From an uncultured Vicinamibacterales bacterium (GTDB lineage: Bacteria; Acidobacteriota; Vicinamibacteria; Vicinamibacterales; UBA8438): 64,000 bases of DNA. The translations under genes and the position numbers were made by a program. The notes beneath the pieces are model-generated. The model saw only the letters and a list, made by a program, of their open reading frames with translations, searched no databases and was not told the origin of the DNA. The stretch spans positions 2,380,001 through 2,444,000 of the forward strand of contig OY282382.1 of NCBI GenBank assembly GCA_958295905.1, in the 5' to 3' direction. Each line of letters starts with the position of its first letter. Position 1 is the first letter of the stretch. Of this stretch, positions 17,935-51,235 are shown piece by piece.

Positions 17935-20514
17935 GTGACCCTTTTCCGCCAGTTCATCGTGCGGGCGTTGCGGCGCGACCCGGCGCGGGGGCTCGTCACC
18001 GTCGCCGGCCTGACCCTCGGGGTGGCGGTGGTGGTGGCCATCCGTCTCGCCAACACCGCCTCGGTGCGCGGCTTCGAGACCGCCCTCGACGTCGTCGCGG
18101 GCCGGACGTCGCTCGAGATCGTGGGGGCGGGGGTCGGGGTGCCGGAAGAGCAGTTGGCCGGCATGGGGTGGCTGCGCGGGTACGGGCGCGTGAGCCCCGT
18201 CATCGACCGCACCGCCCGGCTGGAGACCGCCGACGGGGCCGGGCATCGGCTCCGGGTGCTGGGGGTCGACGTGCTGCGCGACCGGCCGTTCCGCGAGTAC
18301 CGGTTGCTGCGGTTCTCGCGGCAGGGGCGCGCCCCGCGGCCCCGGGAGCTGCTCGACGTCCTGCTCGACCCCGCGTCGATCGTGCTGACCGAACGGTTCG
18401 CGCGGCGTCACGGCATCGACGTCGGCGCGCCGGTGCGGCTCGTCGCCGGCGACGCGGCGCACGAGATGGTCGTGCGCGGCCTGCTGCTCGACGAGGGGCC
18501 GGCGCGGGTGGTCGACGGCCGGCTCGCGCTGCTGGACATCGCGGCCGCGCAGTGGCGGTTCGACGGCCTCGGCCGGGTCGATCGGGTCGAGATTCAACTG
18601 TTCGAGGCAGCCGACATCGACGACGTCGAGCGGGCGATCGCGGCGCGGCTCCCGGCCGGCCTGCGGGTGCAGCGCCCCGCGCAGCGGGGACGGCAGGTCG
18701 AGCGGATGCTGGCCGCCTTTCACTTCAACCTGACCGCGCTGTCCTACATCGCGCTGATCGTCGGCCTGTTCCTGGTTTACAACACGGTCGCCGTCTCGGT
18801 CATCTCGCGCCGCACCGAGATCGGGGTCCTGCGCGCTCTCGGCGCGACCCGCCGGCTCGTGCTCGGCCTGTTCCTGGGCGAGGCGGCGGTGCTGGCCGCG
18901 CTCGGGGCGGCGCTGGGCGCCCCCGCGGGGTGGGGGCTGGCGCGCGCCGCGGTGAGGCTGACCTCGACCACCGTCAACACCCTCTGGGTGACGTCGCAGG
19001 CCACGGTGCCGCCGTTGGGGGCGGCGGACGTGGCGCTCGCGGGCGCCGTCGCCATCCCGCTGGCCCTCGCCGCGGCGGCGCTGCCGGCGGCGGAGGCGGC
19101 CGGGGTCACCCCGATCGCCGCGGTGCGCGGCGCCGACGGCGGGACCGGGCGCGGGCGGTTCCCGCGGCGTGCGGCGCTGGCCGCGGCCGGACTGTTCGGC
19201 GCCGGCGCGTGGCTGTCGACGCTGGAAGCGGTCGGGGGGCTCCCCGTGTTCGGCCTGGGGGCGGCGCTGGCCGTGGTCTTCGGGGCGGCGGCGCTCGTGC
19301 CGGTGCTGCTGGAGGGGCTTCGCCGGCGGGGCCGCGCGGTGCTCGCGGGGCGGTTCCGCATCGAGGGCCTGCTGGCCCACGCCAACCTCTCCGCCGCGGT
19401 GTCCCGGCTCGCCGTCTCCGTCGCGGCGCTCGTCGTCAGCCTCGCGATGCTCGCAGCCATCGCGATCCTGGTCGGGAGCTTTCGGGAGACCGTCGCCTAC
19501 TGGGTGGGACAGACGCTGCGGGCCGACCTCTTCGTGGCCGTCGCGGACGGCGGACCCCGCGGCGCGTCCGCCGGCGTCTCGGAGGCGGCGGAGCGGCGGA
19601 TCGCGTCGCACCCGGCGGTCGTCGCCGTCGACGGGTTCGGCAGCGTCGATCTGCCCTACGGTCCCGGCGGGGACCTGATCATTCTGGGGGCGGGCCGTTT
19701 CGACGTGCTGCTCGAGCACGGGGCGCTGCTGTTCAAGGCGCCGGCCGACGGGCGCGCGGCGATGCGGGGGGCGATCGGGGCGGACGCGGTGGCGGTGTCG
19801 GAGAGCTTCGCCGTCAAGCACCGGGCGGCGGTCGGCGACCGCATCGAGCTCGACACGCCGCAGGGGCCCCGCGCGTTTCGGGTGGCTGCGGTGTACTTCG
19901 ACTATTCGAGCGATCGGGGCATCGTGGTGATGGAGGAGAAGACGTTCGCCCGCCATTACGGGCCCCGCCGGCCGGGCGGCCTCACCGTCTATCTCGTCCC
20001 CGACGCCGACCCCGACACGGTGCGCGACGAGCTGCTGGCCGCGGCCGGCGCCGGCCACCGGCTGTTCATCCGCACGAACCGGACCCTGCGGGCCGAGGTG
20101 CTGCGCATCTTCGACGCGACGTTCGCCATCACCTACGCGCTCCAGGCCATCGCCATCGTCGTCGCGATTCTGGGCGTGGCCGCCACCCTGCTGACTCTGG
20201 TGCTGGAACGCCGCCGCGAGCTGGCGGTGCTGCGGCTGGTCGGGGCCGGCCGCGCCCAGATCCGGCGGATGGTGGTCATCGAGGCGGCGATGATCGGGCT
20301 CCTCAGCCAGGCCGTCGGACTGGCCGTGGGCATCGTGCTGTCGCTGATTCTGATCTACGTCATCAACGTGCAGAGCTTCGGCTGGACCATCCAGTTCCAC
20401 CTGCCGATCGGGTTTCTGGCGCAGTCGACGGTCTTGATCGCGGTGACGACGGCGCTCGCCGGCCTGTATCCGGCCCGGGTGGCGTCACAGGTGGCGGCGG
20501 GGGTAGAACGATGA
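17935..20514 (+). CDS. ABC transporter permease, FtsX-like
   Basis: About 859 residues from a GTG at 17935 ([19 protein letters not shown]). Layout is of the duplicated FtsX type: an N-terminal membrane helix, a large periplasmic domain, a three-helix FtsX block starting near [19 protein letters not shown], a second hydrophobic half with another periplasmic domain, and a C-terminal FtsX block ([20 protein letters not shown] onward). It should pair with the ATPase at 16270 and extract or export lipoproteins or other hydrophobic substrates. The last 49 codons are the source of a threefold 149-bp tandem repeat that continues past the stop at 20512-20514. No internal damage. Confidence 0.85.
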
Positions 20515-20808
20515 GCGGCGAGAGCTTCGGCCGGACCCTCCCGTTCCACCTGCCGCCGGGGTTTCTGGCGCAGTTGACGGTCCTGATCGCGTTGACGACG
20601 GGGCTCGCCGGCCTGTATCCGGCCCGGGTGGCGTCACCGGTGGCGGTGGGGGTGGAACAATGAGCGGCGAGAGCTTCGGCCGGACCCTCCCGTTCCACCT
20701 GCCGCCGGGGTTTCTGGCGCAGTTGACGGTCCTGATCGCGTTGACGACGGGGCTCGCCGGCCTGCATCCGGCCCGGGTGGCGTCACCGGCGGCGGCGGGG
20801 GCGGAACG
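20362..20808. repeat. Three tandem copies (149 bp) of the permease gene's 3' end
   Basis: Units 20362-20510, 20511-20659 and 20660-20808. The first lies inside the permease gene and is more diverged; the second and third are almost identical. Each unit ends at ATGAGCGGC, so the junctions at 20511, 20660 and 20809 all have an ATG overlapping a TGA stop. The third junction is the start of the lipocalin gene. Confidence 0.92.
20511..20663 (+). pseudogene. Duplicated FtsX C-terminal fragment 1, still open (50 aa)
   Basis: The second repeat unit keeps an open frame from ATG 20511 (overlapping the permease stop) to the TGA ending at 20663. It encodes 50 residues ([20 protein letters not shown] onward) matching the permease tail, including the hydrophobic helix. 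It could be translated by coupling, but is most simply a by-product of tandem duplication. Confidence 0.6.
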
Positions 20809-20812
20809 ATGA
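20660..20812 (+). pseudogene. Duplicated FtsX C-terminal fragment 2, still open (50 aa)
   Basis: Same as the preceding fragment, shifted by 149 bp: ATG at 20660 overlaps the previous stop and its own stop overlaps the ATG of the lipocalin gene at 20809. Because 149 is not a multiple of three, each copy is in a different frame from the last, yet each is open. Confidence 0.6.
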
Positions 20813-22248
20813 GCGGCGACGGCGCGGCCCGGACGGGTCGCCGGCGTGCGCCCCGCGACCGGCGGCCGGAGCGCCGCGGCGGAAGGCGGGCCGCCCATCC
20901 CGCGTGGGCGGGGGCGGTTCTCGTCTGTCTGTGCCTGAGTGGCGCCCTCGCGGGGCAGCGCTTCGCGGGCGCCTCGCCGGTTCCAGCGCCATGCGGGGTC
21001 TCTCTGGAGGTGGCGGCGAGCGCCCCCGGAGCCGGAAACCGCGGACGGGGGATGCGGGCCGCTCCCGTCGTTTCGACGTTCGGAACGCCGCGCGCGATCC
21101 CGGGCGCGCCGGGGGAGGTTCCGGGGGACGGCGGGCCGCGGGGGAGTCTGGAGATCCAACCGCCGGCGCCGCGTCGCGGGGCCCCCGCCGGTCAGGAGGC
21201 CGGCGCCCTGACCCCGGAAGGCTGGCGTCAGGCCGGGCCCGGCTACCCGTGGCGGTTTCCCCGGGACCACGGCAGTCATCCTGAGTACCGCATCGAGTGG
21301 TGGTACTACACCGGCAACCTCGCCTCGGACCGGGGCCGCCGGTTCGGCTACCAGGTGACCTTCTTCCGCGTCGGCGTCGATCCGGCCCCCGAGAACCCGT
21401 CGCGGTGGGCGGTCCGCGATCTCTTCATGGCCCATCTCGCGGTGACCGACCTCGGGACCGGCCGGCATCTCGTCGCCGAGCGGCTCGATCGCGGTTCGCT
21501 CGGCTGGGCCGGCGCGCGGACGGGGACCCTCGACGTCTGGAACGGCGGCTGGCGGGCGTCTCTCGACGGCGGTCGCCACCGGCTGAAGGCGGTCGACCGG
21601 TCGTTCGGGGTCGAGCTCGACCTGGAGCCCGGCAAGGGGCCGACCCTGCACGGCGAGGGCGGCCTCAGCCGGAAGGGGCCGTCGGCCGGCAACGCCTCGC
21701 AGTACTATTCGATGACCCGGATGCCGACGGCGGGTCGGGTCCGGCTCGACGGCGGGTGGGTCGACGTGGCCGGCGCGAGCTGGATGGACCACGAGTTCGG
21801 CACGACGTTTCTCGAGCCCGGTCAGGTCGGATGGGACTGGTTCTCGCTGCAGCTCGACGACGGCGCCGACCTCATGGTCTTCCAGTTGCGACGCGCGGAC
21901 GGGCGGCCCGACGACCGGTCCGCCACCTGGGTGGACGGCGGCGGCGCGGCGGCCGTGCTCGATAGCGTCGACGTGCGGCTTGTGCCCGGACGCCGGTGGT
22001 CCTCACCCGTCAGCGGCGCCGCCTACCCGGTCGAGTGGCGCGTCGACGTGCCGGATCGGGAGGCGAGCTTCGAGGTGACCGCGGCCCTCGACGCCCAGGA
22101 GCTGGACACCGGCGACTCGACCGGCGTGACCTACTGGGAAGGCGCGGTCACGGTGACCGGCCGGGTCGGCGGCCGCCCGGTCCGGGGCCGCGGGTACCTG
22201 GAGATGACCGGGTACGCCGGCCGCCCGATGAGCGACGTGTTTCGATAG
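20809..22248 (+). CDS. AttH/CrtC-like lipocalin-domain protein
   Basis: 479 residues from the ATG at 20809, overlapping the stop of the last permease-tail repeat. The N-terminal 140 residues are Arg/Pro/Gly-rich with a hydrophobic stretch ([16 protein letters not shown]) that serves as signal or anchor. From about residue 145 comes the family block starting [20 protein letters not shown] with WWYYTGNL, followed by [10 protein letters not shown] and GWDWFSLQL. This is the CrtC/AttH lipocalin-like fold (PF07143 type). In AttEFGH-like loci such a protein sits with an ABC ATPase and FtsX permease, as here, and probably binds the exported lipid-like substrate. Carotenoid hydratase activity is unlikely without other carotenoid genes. 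The unusually long low-complexity N-terminus may mean the true start is further in. Confidence 0.8.
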
Positions 22249-43090: not shown

Positions 43091-43378
43091 ATGCACACAG
43101 GGCTCGTACGGCGTAGCCCTGGCTGGCGCGCTTGGATCGCCGTTCTGGCGATCGCGCTGGTCGGTGCCGCGTCCGCCGCGACCGTCTGGCACGGGGACCA
43201 TGCCGGCGACCAGAACTGCGCGGTCTGCCAACTGCGTCACCAGCCGGCCGCGGATCTGTCCGGTATTCTCGACATCGGACCGGCGGACATCGCGGAGCTG
43301 CTGGAGCAGCTTCCCCGTGACGGAGGGATCGCAGTCGATCGTTTTCCCCGCCTCCCCGCCCGCGCCCCACCCGCCTAG
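43091..43378 (+). CDS. Small exported Cys/His protein beside the TonB receptor
   Basis: 95 residues from the ATG at 43091. One hydrophobic N-terminal segment (AWIAVLAIALVGAASAATVW) acts as signal or anchor. It is followed at once by HGDHAGDQNCAVCQLRHQPA, a His/Asp-rich stretch with a CxxC, resembling DUF2946-type small proteins found beside metal-uptake genes. The rest is acidic. Position, just before a His/Asp-rich TonB receptor, suggests a periplasmic metal chaperone; that is inference. Downstream 43379-43678 holds a signal-start duplication. Confidence 0.6.
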   Translation: MHTGLVRRSPGWRAWIAVLAIALVGAASAATVWHGDHAGDQNCAVCQLRHQPAADLSGILDIGPADIAELLEQLPRDGGIAVDRFPRLPARAPPA

Positions 43379-43569
43379 TTCCCGTCATTCGTTGCATTCG
43401 TTGGTCGCATAGCGGTCGCCGCCGTTGCGGTGGGCGCCGTGGCGCACGTCCCGGCTTGCCCGCTGCGCGCGCCGGGGCGCAGCGCCGCGGCCGGGGGCGT
43501 CCCTCGTGCGGCGGCGGCCCGCCCGTCGGCCGGGCGCTGCCGGCGTTGGGCAACAGGCATGGGAGATCA

Positions 43570-43719
43570 AGGGGGTTCGATCATGGGAGACAAGGGAGAT
43601 TCGATGCGCTTCAGATTGACAGCGACACGCTTCGCGGCCGCCGTAGGGGGTTCGATCATGGGAGACAAGGGAGATTCGATGCGCTTCAGATTGACAGCGA
43701 CACGCTTCGCGGCCGCCGT
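43570..43719. repeat. Perfect 75-bp tandem duplication over the start of the TonB receptor gene
   Basis: Units 43570-43644 and 43645-43719 are identical and include the ribosome binding site, the ATG and the first 14 codons. Because 75 is 25 codons with no stop, the upstream ATG at 43604 reads in frame into the second copy. Confidence 0.95.
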
Positions 43720-46162
43720 GGCGGCGGCCGCCTTCCTGGCGATGCCGGCCCGGGCGCAGGAGACCGGCGCCGTCGGCGGCCGGGTCACGTTGATCAACAA
43801 CGGCGGGCCGGTGCACGGCGCGGTCATCGTGGTGGTCGGCGCGGGCGCGCTCGGCCTGACCGACGAGCAGGGCGGGTTCGAGATCGACGACGTGCCCGCC
43901 GGCTCGTACGAGGTGATCGCCCAGCGGGAGCATCTCACCGCCGACCGCCAGCTGGTGACGGTCGCCGCCGGCGGGACGGCGACCGTGAGCTTCGAGCTCG
44001 GTTTGTCGGCCGTCCACGAGGAGTTGACCGTCACCGCTTCGGCCGGCGGGGCCGAGACCACGCTCGAGGCGTTCAACGCCGTCACCACCCTCGACTCGTT
44101 CGACATCGCGGTGGAGGGCGCCAACACGATCGGCGAGGCGATCGAGAACGAGCCGGGCATCGCGAGCCGCAGCTTCGGACCGGGCACGAGCCGGCCGATC
44201 ATCCGCGGCTTCGACGGCGACCGGGTGCTCATTCTCGAGGACGGCGTCCGCACCGGCGACCTCTCCAGCCAGTCGGGCGACCACGGGGTCACGATCGACC
44301 CGAACGGCGCCGAGCGCATCGAGATCGTCCGCGGGCCGGCAACGCTGCTCTACGGCTCGAACGCCGTCGGCGGCCTCGTCAACGTGATCACTCCGCAGGA
44401 GAGCTACCGCGACTCGCTGTTCGAGGGCACGCGGGGGCAGTTCAGCACCGACGCGGGGAGCGCGAACGGGCAGGCGGGCACCGCCGCCAGCCTGCAGCAT
44501 GCGCAGGGCAACGTCGTCTTCTGGGGCGGCGGCAGTCTGCGGCGGACGGGCGACTACGACACCCCGGCGGGGACCGTCGACAACTCCGCGACGGAGCTCG
44601 CGAACGCGCGGGCCGGCGTCGGCTGGTTCGGGGAACGAGCGTTCGCCGCCGGCGGGTTCACGGGCGAGGACGGCCGATACGGCGTTCCGTTCGCGGGAGA
44701 GTTCCACGGGGCGCATGAAGGCCACGAGGACGAGGGCGGACACGAAGAGGAGCTGGAGGTCGATCTCGACTCGCGGCGCCGCGCCGGCCGTTTCGACGTG
44801 GGGCTGCGCAACCTCTCCAACCGAGCCTTCGCGGGGGTTCGTCTCACCGCGAACGTCATCGACTGGAGCCACAACGAGCTGGAGATTGCGGAGGGTATCG
44901 AGAGCGTGGGCACGCGGTTCACCAACCGGACCCGCATCCTGCGCGCCGAGGTGGACCAGCGGCAGACGGCGCGGGTGTCGGGCAGATTCGGGGCGTGGAC
45001 GCAGGTCCGCAACTTCGAGGCGGTCGGCGCCGAGGCGTTGGCGCCGCAGACCGATCAGACCGCGTTCGCGGCTTTCGCCTACGAGGAGATCGATTTCGGA
45101 CGCTACCGCCTGCAGTTCGGCGGCCGGGTCGAACGGAACGACTACCGGGCCGGCGAGCGCCCGGATGACGACGACCACGACGATCATGACGACGACGATC
45201 ATGACGACGACGACCGCGACGACGATCATGACGACGATCATGACGACGATCATGACGACGACGACCACGACGACGATCATGACGACGACGACCATGACGA
45301 CGGTCATGACGATGACGATCACGACGACGATCATGACGACGACGACGACGACCATGACGGCGATCACGACGACGAGCTCGTGGCCTCCGACCCGCGGGAT
45401 CGGCAGTTCCTGGGGAGCTCGGGGTCGGTCGGCCTGCACGCCGATCTGGGCGCGGACAGCGCGTTCGTCGCCAACTTCACGTCGTCGCACCGCGCCCCGG
45501 CCCTCGAGGAGCTGTACAACTTCGGTCCGCACGTCGGGAACCTCGCCTTCGAGGTCGGCGACCCCGGCCTCGACGCCGAGACGACGCTCGGACTCGACCT
45601 GAGCCTGCGGCACCGGGCCGAACGCGTCCGCGGCGACCTGAACGTCTACGTCTACGAGATCGACAACTTCATCTTCGGCGAACGGACCGGCGCGTTCGCC
45701 GACGGCCTCCCCGTCCTCGACTTCCAGCAGGGAGACAGCCGGTTCGTGGGGTGGGACGCGCGCGGGAGCGTGCGGCTGGGGACCCAGGCGTGGACGACGC
45801 TCGGCATCGGCTACGTCAACGCCCGGCTCACCACGACCGACGAACCCCTGCCGCGCATTCCGCCGCTGCGGGCGACGTGGAGTCTCGATCTGCCGTACGG
45901 CGGGTTCACCGTCAGTCCGGAGCTGGAGTTCGCGCGCGCCCAGAACCGCTTGTTCCCCGGAGAGACCGAGACGGGGGGCTACTCGGTCGTCAACCTGCGC
46001 GCGTCCTACGTCTGGCCGCGCCAGCACGCGGCGCACATCCTCACCTTCACGGGGTACAACCTGACCAACGCGCTCTATCGGAACCATACGTCCTTCATCA
46101 AGGACTTGGCTCCGGAGATGGGGCGCGGGATCAAGGCGGGCTATTCGGTGCGGTTCTTCTAG
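43679..46162 (+). CDS. TonB-dependent receptor with His/Asp-rich loop, probable metal uptake
   Basis: 827 residues from the ATG at 43679; an in-frame duplicate start at 43604 would add 25 residues. Signal peptide RLTATRFAAAVAAAAFLAMP ends near ARAQ. Next is a carboxypeptidase-like regulatory domain (residues about 25-110; AVIVVVGAGALGLTDEQGGF), then a plug (IIRGFDGDRVLILEDGVRTG; GPATLLYGSNAVGGLVNVIT) and a 22-strand-type barrel ending in GYSVRFF with the terminal Phe. Two loops are metal-like: HGAHEGHEDEGGHEEELE near residue 345 and a run of about 70 Asp/His residues at about 496-566. Such loops occur in zinc receptors of the ZnuD type. Zinc or a similar cation is the likely cargo; this is inference. 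Confidence 0.85.
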   Translation: MRFRLTATRFAAAVAAAAFLAMPARAQETGAVGGRVTLINNGGPVHGAVIVVVGAGALGLTDEQGGFEIDDVPAGSYEVIAQREHLTADRQLVTVAAGGTATVSFELGLSAVHEELTVTASAGGAETTLEAFNAVTTLDSFDIAVEGANTIGEAIENEPGIASRSFGPGTSRPIIRGFDGDRVLILEDGVRTGDLSSQSGDHGVTIDPNGAERIEIVRGPATLLYGSNAVGGLVNVITPQESYRDSLFEGTRGQFSTDAGSANGQAGTAASLQHAQGNVVFWGGGSLRRTGDYDTPAGTVDNSATELANARAGVGWFGERAFAAGGFTGEDGRYGVPFAGEFHGAHEGHEDEGGHEEELEVDLDSRRRAGRFDVGLRNLSNRAFAGVRLTANVIDWSHNELEIAEGIESVGTRFTNRTRILRAEVDQRQTARVSGRFGAWTQVRNFEAVGAEALAPQTDQTAFAAFAYEEIDFGRYRLQFGGRVERNDYRAGERPDDDDHDDHDDDDHDDDDRDDDHDDDHDDDHDDDDHDDDHDDDDHDDGHDDDDHDDDHDDDDDDHDGDHDDELVASDPRDRQFLGSSGSVGLHADLGADSAFVANFTSSHRAPALEELYNFGPHVGNLAFEVGDPGLDAETTLGLDLSLRHRAERVRGDLNVYVYEIDNFIFGERTGAFADGLPVLDFQQGDSRFVGWDARGSVRLGTQAWTTLGIGYVNARLTTTDEPLPRIPPLRATWSLDLPYGGFTVSPELEFARAQNRLFPGETETGGYSVVNLRASYVWPRQHAAHILTFTGYNLTNALYRNHTSFIKDLAPEMGRGIKAGYSVRFF
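45166..45376 (+). repeat. Asp/His simple repeat inside the TonB receptor gene
   Basis: About 210 bp of imperfect GAC/GAT/CAT/CAC triplet repeats keep the reading frame and encode only Asp and His with a few Gly and Arg. Typical blocks are DDDDHDDDHDDDD. The length is likely to vary between strains. Confidence 0.95.
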
Positions 46163-46853: not shown

Positions 46854-47072
46854 CGGCCGGCCGGCGCATAATACCATGGACGCCGTGGGCGCCTTCACGC
46901 CGTGGCTCGCCGGTCCCGCCGCCTTTCCTGCGCGGGCGGCGATATACTGAATCCCCCCGGCCGGTTCCGGTCCGGCCTGACCGCCGGCGTCAGGATGGGG
47001 CGACGGCTGGAAGGAGACCGGTGTCGCCGATGTCCGGCGCCTTCAGGTCGACGAACAGGGCTGCGCCGCGCC

Positions 47073-48698
47073 ATGCCGTCACTTCAGTTCAAGGGCCGGG
47101 TGTTCGTCGAGAACTTCCACCTGGGGGCGCCGTTCCACGAGCTGACGCCGGTGCGCGCCCGGGGCACGAGCCCGAAGGCGAGCCTGCACGACAACCTGAT
47201 CGTCGAGGGCGACAACCTGCTCGCCCTCAAGGCCCTGCTGCCGACGTACCACGGCAAGGTGAAGTGCATCTACATCGACCCGCCCTACAACACCGGCAAC
47301 GAGGGCTGGGCCTACAACGACCGCGTGAACTCCCCGATGATGCAGGCGTGGTTCGGCCGCGTGGTGGACCGCGAGGACCTGACCCGCCACGACAAGTGGT
47401 GCTGCATGATGCTGCCGCGCCTGAAGCTGCTGCGGGAGCTGCTGGCGGACGACGGCGCGATCTTCGTCTCCATCGACGACAACGAGGCGCACCGGCTGCG
47501 GTGCCTGATGGACGAAGTGTTCGGAGAGGAGAACTTCGTCGCGACGGTGATCTGGGAGAAGGTCTTCTCGCCGAAGAACACCGCGAAGCACTTCTCGCAG
47601 GATCACGACTTCATTCTTGCGTACGCCCGTAATCTGGAGGCATGGACGCCCAACCTCCTCGAGCGCGGCGAACGCGCCGTCGAGCGGTACAGGAATCCGG
47701 ATGGGGACCCGCGCGGCGTATGGTCGTCAAGCGATCTGACTGCGCGCAACTACTACAGCCTCGGAACCTACGAAGTGACGAGTCCGTCCGGCAGGAAGTT
47801 CAAGCCCTCCGTCGGCAGATACTTCGTCGTTCCACAACGACGATTTCGTGAATTGGACGAAGACAGCCAAATCTGGTGGGGTCCGAAGGGCGATGGCGTG
47901 CCGAGACTGAAGCGATATTTGTCCGAGGTCCGGGAAGGCGTCGTTCCACAAACGCTCTGGCGCCAGACCGACGCAGGACACACGCAGGAGGCGAAGAAAG
48001 AAATCGTCGGCATCCTGGATTTCGAGAAATCAGAGGACGTGTTCAACACCGTCAAGCCCACCAGACTGATTCGCCGCATCCTCCAGGTCGCCACCGACAA
48101 GGATTCCATCGTCCTCGACTCCTTCGCCGGCTCGGGCACCACCGCCCACGCCGTGCTCGCCCTCAACCGGGAGGACGGCGGCGACCGGCGTTTCATTCTG
48201 ATCGAGTGCGAGGACTACGTGGACTCGATCACCGCCGAGCGGGTGCGGCGGGTCGTCGGGGGCGTGCCGTCGGCGAAGGACGAGGCCCTGAAGGCGGGGC
48301 TCGGCGGCGGGTTCAGCTATTTCAAGATCGGGGCGCCGCTGCGCAAGGAGTCGCTGCTCGATCCGTCGAAGCTGCCGAGCTACGAGAAGCTGGCCGGCTA
48401 CGTCTTCTTCACCGCCACCGGCGAGGAGTTCGATCCCGGCGCGGTGCGGCGGGACGACTGGTTCATCGGCCGCAGCCGCGTCCACGACGTGTTCCTGCTT
48501 TACACCGACGACGTGGAAGCCTTGAAGAACTTGGCGCTGACGAAGCGCATCGCGGAGGCGCTGCCCGGCGGCGGGCGCCAGAAGCTGGTCTTCGCGCCCA
48601 CGAAGTATCTCGATCAGGAGCTGCTGCACCGCTGCGGCGTCACGTTCCAGCAGCTTCCGTTCGAGATCTACGAATCGGTCGAGAAGCTCGAGCGATGA
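47073..48698 (+). CDS. mod: Type III restriction-modification system methyltransferase (Mod)
   Basis: 541 residues from the ATG at 47073 (PSLQFKGRVFVENFHLGAPF), which agrees with the usual Mod start. The catalytic motif IV is DPPYNTGNEGW near residue 69 and the SAM-binding motif I is DSFAGSGTTAHAVLALN, in the order IV before I of beta-class N6-adenine methyltransferases. The target-recognition region lies between (about residues 150-330). It methylates one strand of an asymmetric site and confers specificity to Res. The stop overlaps the Res start (ATGA). Codon use around 47640-47990 looks less GC-rich than the ends, as is usual for exchanged recognition domains. Confidence 0.9.
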   Translation: MPSLQFKGRVFVENFHLGAPFHELTPVRARGTSPKASLHDNLIVEGDNLLALKALLPTYHGKVKCIYIDPPYNTGNEGWAYNDRVNSPMMQAWFGRVVDREDLTRHDKWCCMMLPRLKLLRELLADDGAIFVSIDDNEAHRLRCLMDEVFGEENFVATVIWEKVFSPKNTAKHFSQDHDFILAYARNLEAWTPNLLERGERAVERYRNPDGDPRGVWSSSDLTARNYYSLGTYEVTSPSGRKFKPSVGRYFVVPQRRFRELDEDSQIWWGPKGDGVPRLKRYLSEVREGVVPQTLWRQTDAGHTQEAKKEIVGILDFEKSEDVFNTVKPTRLIRRILQVATDKDSIVLDSFAGSGTTAHAVLALNREDGGDRRFILIECEDYVDSITAERVRRVVGGVPSAKDEALKAGLGGGFSYFKIGAPLRKESLLDPSKLPSYEKLAGYVFFTATGEEFDPGAVRRDDWFIGRSRVHDVFLLYTDDVEALKNLALTKRIAEALPGGGRQKLVFAPTKYLDQELLHRCGVTFQQLPFEIYESVEKLER

Positions 48699-51235
48699 TC
48701 CTGAAGGAGTACCAGAAGCGGGCGCTGGATCGCGTCGGCGAGTTCGTCGAGCGGCTGGCCGAGTGGCGCGGGAAGGCCGAGAAGGTGCGCGAGATCGATC
48801 CCGACTTCGACTGGGTGGGTCGCGCCTGGGAGAAAACGACCCGCGGCTCGTACCTGCCGCGCCGGAACGGCCTGGGCGAGCCGCTGCCTTCGTTCTGCCT
48901 CAAGGTGCCCACCGGCGGCGGCAAGACCCTGCTCGCGGTCAAGGTGATCGACTGCGTCAACACCCGCTACCGCCGGCGGCAGACCGGCTTGGTGCTGTGG
49001 ATCGTGCCCACCTCCCAGATCTACGCCCAGACGCTGCGGGCGCTGAAGGATCGCGACCATCCGTACCGCCAGCAGCTCGACGTGGCGTCGGCGGGCCGGA
49101 CCCTGGTGCTGGAGAAGACGAGCGGCTTCGGCCCGCAGGACGTGCGGGAGCGGCTGTGCGTGCTGCTGCTGATGCTGCCGTCCGCGAACCGCGGGACGAA
49201 AGAGCAGTTGCGGATGTTCCGGGACGCCGGCGGCTTCGACCGATTCTTTCCGCCGGACGACGACGCGGACGCGCACCGCGCCCTGCGGGCGCGCGTGCCC
49301 AACCTGGATGCCTTCGATCGAGCCGGCGGCGTCTGGGGCGGGCAGGTGAAGACGTCGCTCGGCAACGCGCTGCGCCTGCTGCGGCCGCTGATCGTCCTCG
49401 ACGAGGGCCACAAGGCGTACAGCCGGAACGCGCGGGAGACGCTCGAAGGGTTCAACCCGTGCCTGGTCGTCGAGCTGTCCGCGACGCCGCCGAAGGGGGC
49501 CAACGTGCTGGTGGCCATCTCCGGCCGCGAACTGCTCGCGGAGGAGATGATCAAGCTGGACCTGCACGTCACGAACAAGGCGAACGCGGGCTGGCAGGAC
49601 GCGCTGCTCGCCGCCGTCGAGCGCCGCGACGCGCTGGAGGCGGCGGCGCGCGGGCACGAGGCGGACAGCGGCGTCCACATCCGCCCCATCTGCCTCGTGC
49701 AGGTGGAGCGCACCGGCCGGGACCAGCGGCGGGCGGGGGTGGTTCACGCGGACGACGCGCGCGACTACCTGCTGCGCCACCCGCGGATCAGCGCCGAGCA
49801 GATCGCGGTGAAGACCAGCGGGCGGGACGAGTTGAAGGCGGCGGACGCCGCCGGCGGCCTGCTCTCGCGCGACTGTCCCATCCGCTTCATCATCACCAAG
49901 CAGGCGCTGCAGGAGGGCTGGGACTGCTCGTTCGCCTACGTCCTGGCGATTCTGACGAATCCGGGTTCGAAGAGCGCGTTGACGCAGCTCGTGGGCCGCA
50001 TCCTCCGCCAGCCCTACGCGGCGAAGACCCGCGTCGCGGCGCTGGACGAAAGCTACGTGTTCTGTTTTCGACGGCGCGGCGCGGACCTGCTGGAAGAGGT
50101 GCGCAAGGGGTTCGGGCTGGAGGGGTTGCAGGACCTGGAGGGCCGGATCGCGGCCGGCGGCGACGGCGCCGCGTCCGCCGCGGCGACGATCACCCGGCAG
50201 CGGGAACGCTACCGCCGGGCCGCCGCCGATCTCGTGTTGCCGGCGTTCATGATCCGGGACGGCGGGCGGTGGCGCCTTGTGCATTACGAGGCGGACGTCC
50301 TGTCCCGCGTGCCGTGGGACGACGCCGACCTGTCGCCCCTGTTCGACCTCGATCTCGGCCCCGGCGATCGCGACGTCGAGTTGCGCGCGGGACTCGACGC
50401 GCACCCGCTGGGCGCGGCCCACGACCGTCCTGACGGCGGCGGCGCGGGCGCGTCGGCGGACAGCGCCGGCGACGGAGAGATCGACTACTACTTCGCGGCC
50501 GGCCACCTGCTCGACGCCATGCCGAATCCGTGGCGGGGCGCGGAGGCGGCCCGGCGGGTGTTCGATGCGTTGCTGCGGAAGCATCCCCGCGGCAAGGTCG
50601 CCGGGAACTACCTGTTCGTTCTGGAAGCGCTGCGCAGGCAGTTGGAGAAGGAGCGCGACCGGCTGTCCCGGCAGGTGTTCGCCGGGTTGCTGGAATCGGG
50701 CGCGATGCGCTTCATCGTCGTGGCCGACGACCTCCGGTTCAACCGGCTGCCGCAGCGGATCGAAGCGCCGAAGGCCCGGCGGGCGAACCGCGATGACGGC
50801 GGGCAGTACGAACGCAACCTGTTCGATCTGATCACCGAAGACGAGCTGAACGGCCTGGAGAACAAGGTCGCCACCTATCTGGACGGGCAGGCCCGCCTGT
50901 TCTTCTGGTACCGGAACCGGTCGCGCAGGGACTACTACGTGCAGGGCTGGAAGCCGCGCCGCATCTACGCCGACTTCATCCTGACGCTCAAGCCGGACGA
51001 GCCGGGCGTCGGCGACGAATACCACCGCGTCTTCGTCGTGGAGACCAAGGGCGTCCACCTTGGCCGGTCCGAGGACACCGAGTACAAGCGCTCGGTCTTC
51101 GACGTCTGCTCGGAGCACGCCAGAAAGACGGACTGGGCCGAGTTCGTGCCCGCCATGCGCAACCGGGTGATGCGTTTCGAGATCGTGGACGAGGAGGAGT
51201 GGAAGCACCGCCTGAACGCGCTGCTCGCCGGTTGA
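48695..51235 (+). CDS. res: Type III restriction enzyme, Res subunit
   Basis: 846 residues from the ATG at 48695, overlapping the mod stop. Helicase motifs: Walker A PTGGGKT, DEGHKAY as motif II, ELSATPPKG as motif III, and QALQEGWDCSF with QLVGRILRQPY as motifs V and VI. The C-terminal nuclease appears as DFILTLKP then VVETKG, a PD-(D/E)xK arrangement. It cleaves DNA after ATP-driven movement between two inversely oriented unmodified sites. Complete length for the family; the system looks functional. It is the intact core of the 46-56 kb accessory island. Confidence 0.9.
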   Translation: MILKEYQKRALDRVGEFVERLAEWRGKAEKVREIDPDFDWVGRAWEKTTRGSYLPRRNGLGEPLPSFCLKVPTGGGKTLLAVKVIDCVNTRYRRRQTGLVLWIVPTSQIYAQTLRALKDRDHPYRQQLDVASAGRTLVLEKTSGFGPQDVRERLCVLLLMLPSANRGTKEQLRMFRDAGGFDRFFPPDDDADAHRALRARVPNLDAFDRAGGVWGGQVKTSLGNALRLLRPLIVLDEGHKAYSRNARETLEGFNPCLVVELSATPPKGANVLVAISGRELLAEEMIKLDLHVTNKANAGWQDALLAAVERRDALEAAARGHEADSGVHIRPICLVQVERTGRDQRRAGVVHADDARDYLLRHPRISAEQIAVKTSGRDELKAADAAGGLLSRDCPIRFIITKQALQEGWDCSFAYVLAILTNPGSKSALTQLVGRILRQPYAAKTRVAALDESYVFCFRRRGADLLEEVRKGFGLEGLQDLEGRIAAGGDGAASAAATITRQRERYRRAAADLVLPAFMIRDGGRWRLVHYEADVLSRVPWDDADLSPLFDLDLGPGDRDVELRAGLDAHPLGAAHDRPDGGGAGASADSAGDGEIDYYFAAGHLLDAMPNPWRGAEAARRVFDALLRKHPRGKVAGNYLFVLEALRRQLEKERDRLSRQVFAGLLESGAMRFIVVADDLRFNRLPQRIEAPKARRANRDDGGQYERNLFDLITEDELNGLENKVATYLDGQARLFFWYRNRSRRDYYVQGWKPRRIYADFILTLKPDEPGVGDEYHRVFVVETKGVHLGRSEDTEYKRSVFDVCSEHARKTDWAEFVPAMRNRVMRFEIVDEEEWKHRLNALLAG

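Follow-up and report, generated by a model that had tools for sequence, protein, structure and literature searches.

A ZnuD-like TonB-dependent receptor with Asp/His-rich loops and a CruR-like upstream reading frame in an uncultured acidobacterium: a candidate system for zinc uptake

Background

We describe a putative metal uptake system encoded in a stretch of 64,000 nucleotides (nt) from the genome of an uncultured Vicinamibacterales bacterium (Acidobacteriota; GenBank assembly GCA_958295905.1, contig OY282382.1, positions 2,380,001 to 2,444,000 of the forward strand), referred to below as the window, with positions counted from its first letter. Its central element is a TonB-dependent outer-membrane receptor that resembles the zinc receptor ZnuD, carries a 71-residue run of Asp and His in a loop placed outside the cell by structure modelling, and is preceded by an upstream open reading frame (uORF) with the anatomy of the CruR regulator of Bordetella. 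We propose that the receptor, its Asp/His-rich loops as an antenna and the uORF as a switch act together in the uptake of a metal that is most likely zinc, and we estimate the probability of this reading at about 0.6. We found no description of this combination in the accessible parts of the open-licence literature. The features discussed are collected in Table 1.

Table 1. Coordinates of the receptor gene, the upstream reading frame and their predicted functional elements in the window
Feature	Position	Strand	Remark
ZnuD-like TonB-dependent receptor, 827 residues (CarboxypepD_reg, plug, 22-strand barrel)	43679..46162	+	
Exact 75-bp tandem duplication (100% match, 2 copies)	43570..43719	+	pre-start sequence and receptor codons 1-13
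D201-H202, equivalent to ZnuD Asp-99/His-100	44279..44284	+	plug apical loop; by alignment
Loop 3 His/Glu cluster, residues 343-358	44705..44752	+	at the place of the ZnuD loop 3 cluster
E400, equivalent to ZnuD Glu-340	44876..44878	+	by alignment
Asp/His run, residues 496-566, extracellular loop 6 (residues 492-574)	45164..45376	+	by model; pLDDT <50 at 505-561
H618, equivalent to ZnuD His-499	45530..45532	+	by alignment
95-codon uORF, CruR/DUF2946-like: N-terminal hydrophobic stretch, CxxC, RAPP-A-stop	43091..43378	+	
CxxC codons C43-C46, presumed metal sensor	43217..43228	+	by analogy to CruR (PMC9426467)
RAPP codons and last Ala, presumed ribosome-arrest motif	43361..43375	+	by analogy (PMC9426467, PMC12992588)
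C>G bubble, presumed Rho loading region	43287..43442	+	uORF end and start of the gap

Relationship to ZnuD and position of the loops

Pfam detects CarboxypepD_reg, plug and barrel domains in the receptor (Table 1), and its closest named records are metagenome-assembled genomes (MAGs) of Vicinamibacteria and other Acidobacteriota. According to a search of the PDB sequences, its best match is ZnuD of Neisseria meningitidis (4rdr, E-value 8.6e-38), the runner-up being found at 7.4e-14; in the fold search with the receptor model, ZnuD entries occupied the top four places (ZnuD structures are 4rdr, 4rdt and 4rvw); and among the NCBIfam models that of ZnuD (NF038289) gave the best score. Since this score remains below the cut-off of the model (see below), we call the receptor ZnuD-like and do not file it as ZnuD; in this form the ZnuD-type receptor postulated in an earlier, sequence-only reading of the same DNA is upheld. 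The assumed start of the gene is consistent with the N-termini of the relatives. The 75-bp duplication spans it and yields two in-frame starts, at 43604 and 43679.

An AlphaFold2 model built with 69 sequences (predicted local distance difference test, pLDDT, 85.5; predicted template modelling score, pTM, 0.83) exhibits a barrel of 22 strands, counted from the strand list of the model with four short strands omitted. If the strand order is counted from the plug, taken as the periplasmic side, both loop 3 (residues 336-359, joining strands 5 and 6) and loop 6 (residues 492-574, joining strands 11 and 12) lie outside the cell. The Asp/His run, which the sequence-only reading had assigned to the barrel region, falls into loop 6 and is disordered in the model; a periplasmic location was rejected on account of the modelled strand order. 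This placement agrees with that of ZnuD residues 430-459 in the external loop 6, as given in the accessible part of PMC4557270, because the alignment joins residue 487 of the query to ZnuD 429 (the numbering of that paper being the chain position minus 14).

The second His/Glu cluster, suspected earlier near residue 345, was found in loop 3, and in both proteins a His/Asp cluster stands directly behind a YG[LV]P motif in this loop. According to the accessible description, ZnuD possesses two short clusters there, HSHEYDDCHAD and HDDDNAHAHTH, together with a Cys pair, whereas the window receptor has its long run in loop 6, lacks Cys, has no detected Zur box and is preceded by a uORF.

The zinc ligands reported for ZnuD in the accessible part of PMC4557270 (Asp-99, His-100, Glu-340 and His-499) align to D201, H202, E400 and H618 of the window receptor, i.e. 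all four are conserved. This combination (DHEH) is kept in 116 of 147 non-redundant rows of the alignment. All four columns are filled in 130 rows, which include these 116; the others among the 130 have HHHH (8), EHEH (2), DEEH (2), HHEH (1) and EHED (1). The window's own copy (L001) is included in the alignment rows, as it is in the tree and in the uORF and C>G scans described below. In the tree, a quick LG+G4 calculation with no bootstrap and with a warning of long branches, the eight HHHH proteins form one clade nested among loop-rich receptors, suggesting a single change. One of them is a paralogue encoded in the window genome (C1:4324-6672; L009:4321-7011), which adjoins transposase, PIN and ResIII genes.

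The copper receptors OprC and NosA share with the window receptor the 22-strand barrel and a metal site close to the place of that of ZnuD, and OprC appears in the fold search after ZnuD and two heme receptors. On the other hand, the copper site CxxxM-HxM of OprC is not present in the receptor, which contains no Cys, and the TonB-copper model (TIGR01778) gives only 59.1 bits at a cut-off of 472.45.

The Asp/His run and its variation among relatives

A run of about 70 Asp and His residues had been noted from the letters, and it does exist: it begins at 45164, two bases before the previously given start at 45166, and its 71 codons in the receptor frame specify 53 Asp, 14 His, 2 Gly, 1 Arg and 1 Glu, with a His every 3-9 residues, mainly every 4 or 5. 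With Asp and His accounting for 7.9% of the rest of the protein, the binomial probability of such a composition is about 1e-68. A degenerate 21-nt pattern for DDHDDDH has four matches in the 6.3-Mb genome, all of them within the run, while the reversed pattern, used as a control, has none.

The proposed unstable triplet repeat was not borne out as to its unit, as the DNA consists of imperfect units of mainly 12 and 15 nt, e.g. GAC GAC (GAC) GAT CAT. We compared 35 of the 36 tracts that comprise at least 45 residues with at least 7 His with 200 synonymous shuffles each. Exact DNA repetition beyond the protein level (reached by at most 10 of 200 shuffles) was found in 14 of the 35 tracts, including that of the window, for which the coverage by exact repeats was reached by 6 of 200 shuffles, and no such exact DNA repeat was found in 7 of the 35. 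In some distant members the loops are thus rich in His/Glu although their DNA is not repetitive, a point in favour of selection acting on the chemistry of the loop.

Loop lengths, measured with their flanks (between residues 489 and 575 for loop 6 and between 337 and 362 for loop 3), cannot be relied on in rows where frames are broken or contigs end (L036, L037, L041, L054 and L055). The loops are missing in some relatives and exceed 100 residues in others. Loop 6 comprises at least 30 residues in 39 of the 130 complete rows, among which the window (85 residues) ranks second, and at most 13 residues between the anchors in 72; longer ones occur in two incomplete rows (112 and 133 residues), and two further long values come from the frame-broken row L055. 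In a distant clade, loop 8 (strands 15-16 in the model) bears a His/Asp/Glu insert instead. With His-rich loops defined by at least three His in loops 3 and 6 and at least two in loop 8, gains and losses on the tree add up to at least 19 changes of state for loop 3, at least 10 for loop 6 and at least 4 for loop 8.

Outside the loops, L010 and L018 share 99.6% identity in an alignment of 700 residues, and the DNA of the whole gene is 98.9% identical, gaps aside. Their loops 3 comprise 33 and 57 residues, an in-frame difference of 72 bp that corresponds to four 18-bp units, and their loops 6 comprise 69 and 59 residues, again in frame (30 bp). In three more proteins, 96-98% alike over 363 residues, loop 6 spans 75, 112 and 133 residues. 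The expectation that the repeat could vary in length is supported among the relatives (by 24 and 10 residues in the former pair), and its instability is supported by such differences between near-identical orthologues; the evidence for slippage in the window DNA itself is modest.

The upstream reading frame

The small CxxC/His protein noted previously just upstream of the receptor is also real, but it reads as a uORF of the CruR type and not as a metal-binding partner: it is probably a regulatory element of the CruR/DUF2946 kind rather than a metal carrier. In the accessible parts of the literature, CruR of Bordetella is described as a uORF with CxxC, RAPP and a spacing of 45 residues (PMC9426467, PMC9973294, PMC12992588), in which arrest at RAPP keeps the receptor gene transcribed, while copper relieves the arrest and Rho terminates transcription (PMC9426467). 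CruR is reported there to be copper-specific, and its homologues to head operons predicted to function in copper homeostasis. The receptor downstream of CruR, CrtA (BfrG), is reported in the accessible part of PMC12914433 to import chelated copper and to possess the conserved residues E337, Q356, H358, R395, W265 and Y130. The occurrence given for CruR in PMC9426467 includes Proteobacteria and a few Planctomycetes, Firmicutes and Deinococcus, and RAPP/RGPP uORFs before TonB-related genes are reported across Gram-negative bacteria in PMC12992588 (both as far as accessible), hence their mere presence in the window genome is not new.

The likeness to the CruR-CrtA locus of Bordetella pertussis extends to several features. 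The window uORF exhibits CxxC followed by 44 residues, RAPP, one Ala and the stop, i.e. a spacing close to 45 with RAPP near the C-terminus; a C>G bubble is present in both; and a TonB-dependent receptor follows after a long gap, of 162 bp in the accessible description of Bordetella and of 300 nt in the window (median over 66 loci: 176 nt). The differences are that the window receptor carries a ZnuD-type site, that the next gene in Bordetella encodes PepSY_TM whereas in the window a minus-strand open reading frame (ORF) and then apparent restriction-modification genes follow, and that the DUF2946 score of the window uORF (21.3 bits) lies just under the Pfam cut-off of 23.7, for which reason we call it CruR-like. 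A DUF2946 match with an E-value of at most 0.01 was obtained for 10 of 37 uORFs, the window's included, and in the alignment of these 37 only C43, C46, R91, P93 and P94 are invariant.

Upstream sequence of 700 nt or more was available for 122 rows, of which 66 have a uORF with a spacing of 43-47 (62 of them with 43-45), the presumed arrest motif being RAPP in 48, RGPP in 13 and RSPP in 5. The uORF pattern has 92 matches in 1.49 Mb of receptor-centred, partly overlapping loci versus once in 4.49 Mb of shuffled sequence. It was found in 58 of 102 loci with the DHEH site versus none of eight of the four-His type (6 HHHH, 1 HHH-, 1 HH--), for which Fisher's test gives p = 0.002, a value that is indicative only, as the sequences are related; the pattern scan likewise found no CruR-type uORF before the HHHH paralogue of the window genome (L009). 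A 78-nt segment at the uORF stop contains more C than G in all of the 66 loci, with a signal that drops on either side. Pro codons contribute to it, but a segment centred 30 nt beyond the stop still has the excess in 59 of 66.

Proposed mechanism

From these data we infer the following scenario. The ZnuD-like receptor would import a scarce divalent metal ion, most likely zinc, from the outside. The acidic, disordered loop 6 and the smaller loop 3 would bind the metal as an extracellular antenna and concentrate it, and the ion would then pass to the buried site formed by D201, H202, E400 and H618, with TonB driving the inward step. Gain or loss of short repeat units may lengthen or shorten the loops in frame, so that the number of low-affinity ligands, and with it metal capture, could shift rapidly while the gene stays intact. 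When the metal is short, the ribosome would stall at RAPP, Rho would be blocked and the receptor gene transcribed; when the metal binds to the nascent CxxC, the stall would end and transcription would terminate.

Related uORFs and ABC transporter genes

The window genome contains at least four more CruR-type uORFs near 3.20-3.214 Mb, one of which precedes a receptor that comes nearest to the heme and B12 models (without reaching their cut-offs). A CxxCC-variant uORF stands directly before a gene for a CobN/BchH-like protein (below cut-offs; L177:11837-15760 and L177:15928-16209), another uORF (CDACHFRHLSG..RGPPA) before a gene for an SMP-30-like (SGL) beta-propeller protein (L177:16265-17509), a pair also seen in L085, and a uORF with a spacing of 42 before genes for an ATP-binding cassette (ABC) ATPase and two DUF3526 permeases (L179:799-4950).

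By gene content, such ABC genes recall znuK-znuGHI of Caulobacter crescentus, where, according to the accessible part of PMC4176598, an ABC-2 type ATPase and two permeases are encoded next to a TonB-dependent receptor. This content is matched in three relatives of the window locus (L085, L182 and L183), where the order is uORF, DHEH receptor, uORF, ATPase and two permeases; in L184 the receptor half and the ABC half are about 5 kb apart. The control differs, being exerted by Zur in Caulobacter according to the same source, whereas in the relatives separate CruR-type uORFs head the receptor gene and the ABC genes. In L186 (L186:5774-6518) the first and the second uORF are separated by 427 nt in which no receptor match occurs, which looks like the loss of a receptor gene.

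DUF3526 is present in 17 of 60 genomes (20 loci). A uORF directly precedes the ATPase in 10 of the 16 loci examined, three others being cut at that place (L187, L189 and L195) and three lacking a uORF (L192, L193 and L194). Among 14 control genomes, a match was obtained in Caulobacter alone, and we found no mention of DUF3526 in the open-licence literature. A scan of 61 of the 63 neighbouring genes for a downstream partner of the receptor revealed no family in more than four of them; the ABC genes were missed by it, since they are located behind the second uORF or beyond the loci scanned.

Substrate and alternative explanations

Zinc is favoured because of the ZnuD-type site and the loops, and copper has to be considered because of the type of the uORF; some other metal seems improbable. 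Several observations weigh against the proposed zinc system or parts of it. The score of the receptor on NF038289 is 214.3 bits at a cut-off of 950, and without Cys the receptor cannot form the loop 3 disulfide of ZnuD. The longest exact repeat of the window tract is equalled by 19 of 200 shuffles, and the length differences were taken from draft MAGs, where mis-assembly of repeats is possible. Loops 3 and 6 co-vary (Spearman 0.78 over 130 rows), but their linked change is not significant with relatedness allowed for (median p 0.5), and independent pairs do not uphold the co-variation. The uORF was not found by pattern in 44 of 102 DHEH loci. No match to ZnuA or ZIP was obtained in the genome, compared with 11 and 8 of 14 controls, respectively. 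No Zur box with up to three mismatches was detected in the window, including the region upstream of 43091 where the sequence-only reading had suggested looking for one, with a proteobacterial consensus that may not fit this phylum. Finally, plasmids of Eleftheria and Comamonas (Betaproteobacteria; found among six examined of 12 plasmid records with a DUF3526 match, one of the six without annotation) show the same gene order, with receptor, ATPase and two DUF3526 genes behind a uORF, and their receptors are only 18-20% identical and have no DHEH as aligned. The DUF3526 genes were therefore rejected as proof of zinc.

Zur boxes show no excess over shuffled sequence upstream of the DHEH loci, be it the 44 without or the 58 with a uORF, and the best Zur match has four mismatches in three of the eight four-His loci versus about 0.5 expected, a weak signal. 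The window genome contains two Fur-family genes. A riboswitch was rejected, since at gathering scores Rfam detected no RNA family in the window other than a tRNA, and none in 11 loci, eight of them with four-His paralogues.

The strongest alternative, which we regard as possible though on the whole doubtful, is that the protein is a copper(II) receptor, with a copper-sensing uORF like that of Bordetella and with His/Asp loops that collect Cu(II). The agreement with CruR in motifs, spacing, position and C>G bubble, the copper specificity and predicted copper-homeostasis operons reported in the accessible part of the CruR literature, and the further CruR-type uORFs in the same genome speak for it. 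However, the buried site is the zinc site of ZnuD and not that of OprC, the TonB-copper model is far from its cut-off, and the uORF that precedes the CobN/BchH-like protein indicates that this type of uORF need not mean copper.

It is also conceivable, if not very probable, that the run is a neutral product of slippage, tolerated in a disordered loop and without a role in metal capture; this explanation is compatible with either metal, and its odds are not exclusive of theirs. The imperfect tandem DNA, the strong length differences among near-identical proteins and the short loop 6 in more than half of the complete rows are consistent with it. Yet loops that the model places outside the cell have repeatedly acquired or shed inserts of the same chemistry, the His/Glu-rich loops of some distant members show no repeats at the DNA level, and the D/H pattern occurs nowhere else in the genome. 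A different surface role of the polyanionic loop, such as calcium-dependent adhesion, shielding against phages or bacteriocins, or binding of a metal chelate or protein, would suit the very high ratio of Asp to His (53 to 14) and the exposure of the loop in the model, but we consider it quite unlikely in view of the near-regular His spacing, the conserved metal site and the metal-type uORF.

Other features of the neighbourhood

The next ORF after the window receptor is small, lies on the minus strand and is CCDC90-like. Farther downstream, at 46902-51235, a pair of genes looks by motif (DPPYN) like a type III modification and restriction pair; a ResIII gene is also found near the HHHH paralogue. 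In L091 (10581-13346) and L093 (10490-13255) the receptor is followed by genes for a Pyr_redox_3 protein and a FeoB-like GTPase with a Gate domain, which could possibly provide an inner-membrane route for the metal. Elsewhere in the window, at 20372-20819, a 149-bp unit occurs in three tandem copies that are 93% alike.

Conclusions

The proposed zinc system links ZnuD-type receptors of free metal with metal-sensing arrest peptides of the CruR type, which have so far been studied apart, and it raises the question of whether CruR-type uORFs may sense metals besides copper. The four-His clade of paralogues offers a natural comparison for metal selectivity, and because loop length varies naturally among receptors that are almost identical, the idea of extracellular loops as a "fishing net" becomes testable. 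It is tempting to speculate, and we do so tentatively, that the Acidobacteriota considered here run a regulon for metal uptake (probably of zinc) by parallel nascent-chain sensors, with one arrest uORF per operon, instead of or beside Zur, and with a receptor whose Asp/His antenna loops are tuned by slippage. If this is true, affinity for a scarce metal would evolve by repeat number, while the supply of the metal would be sensed co-translationally.

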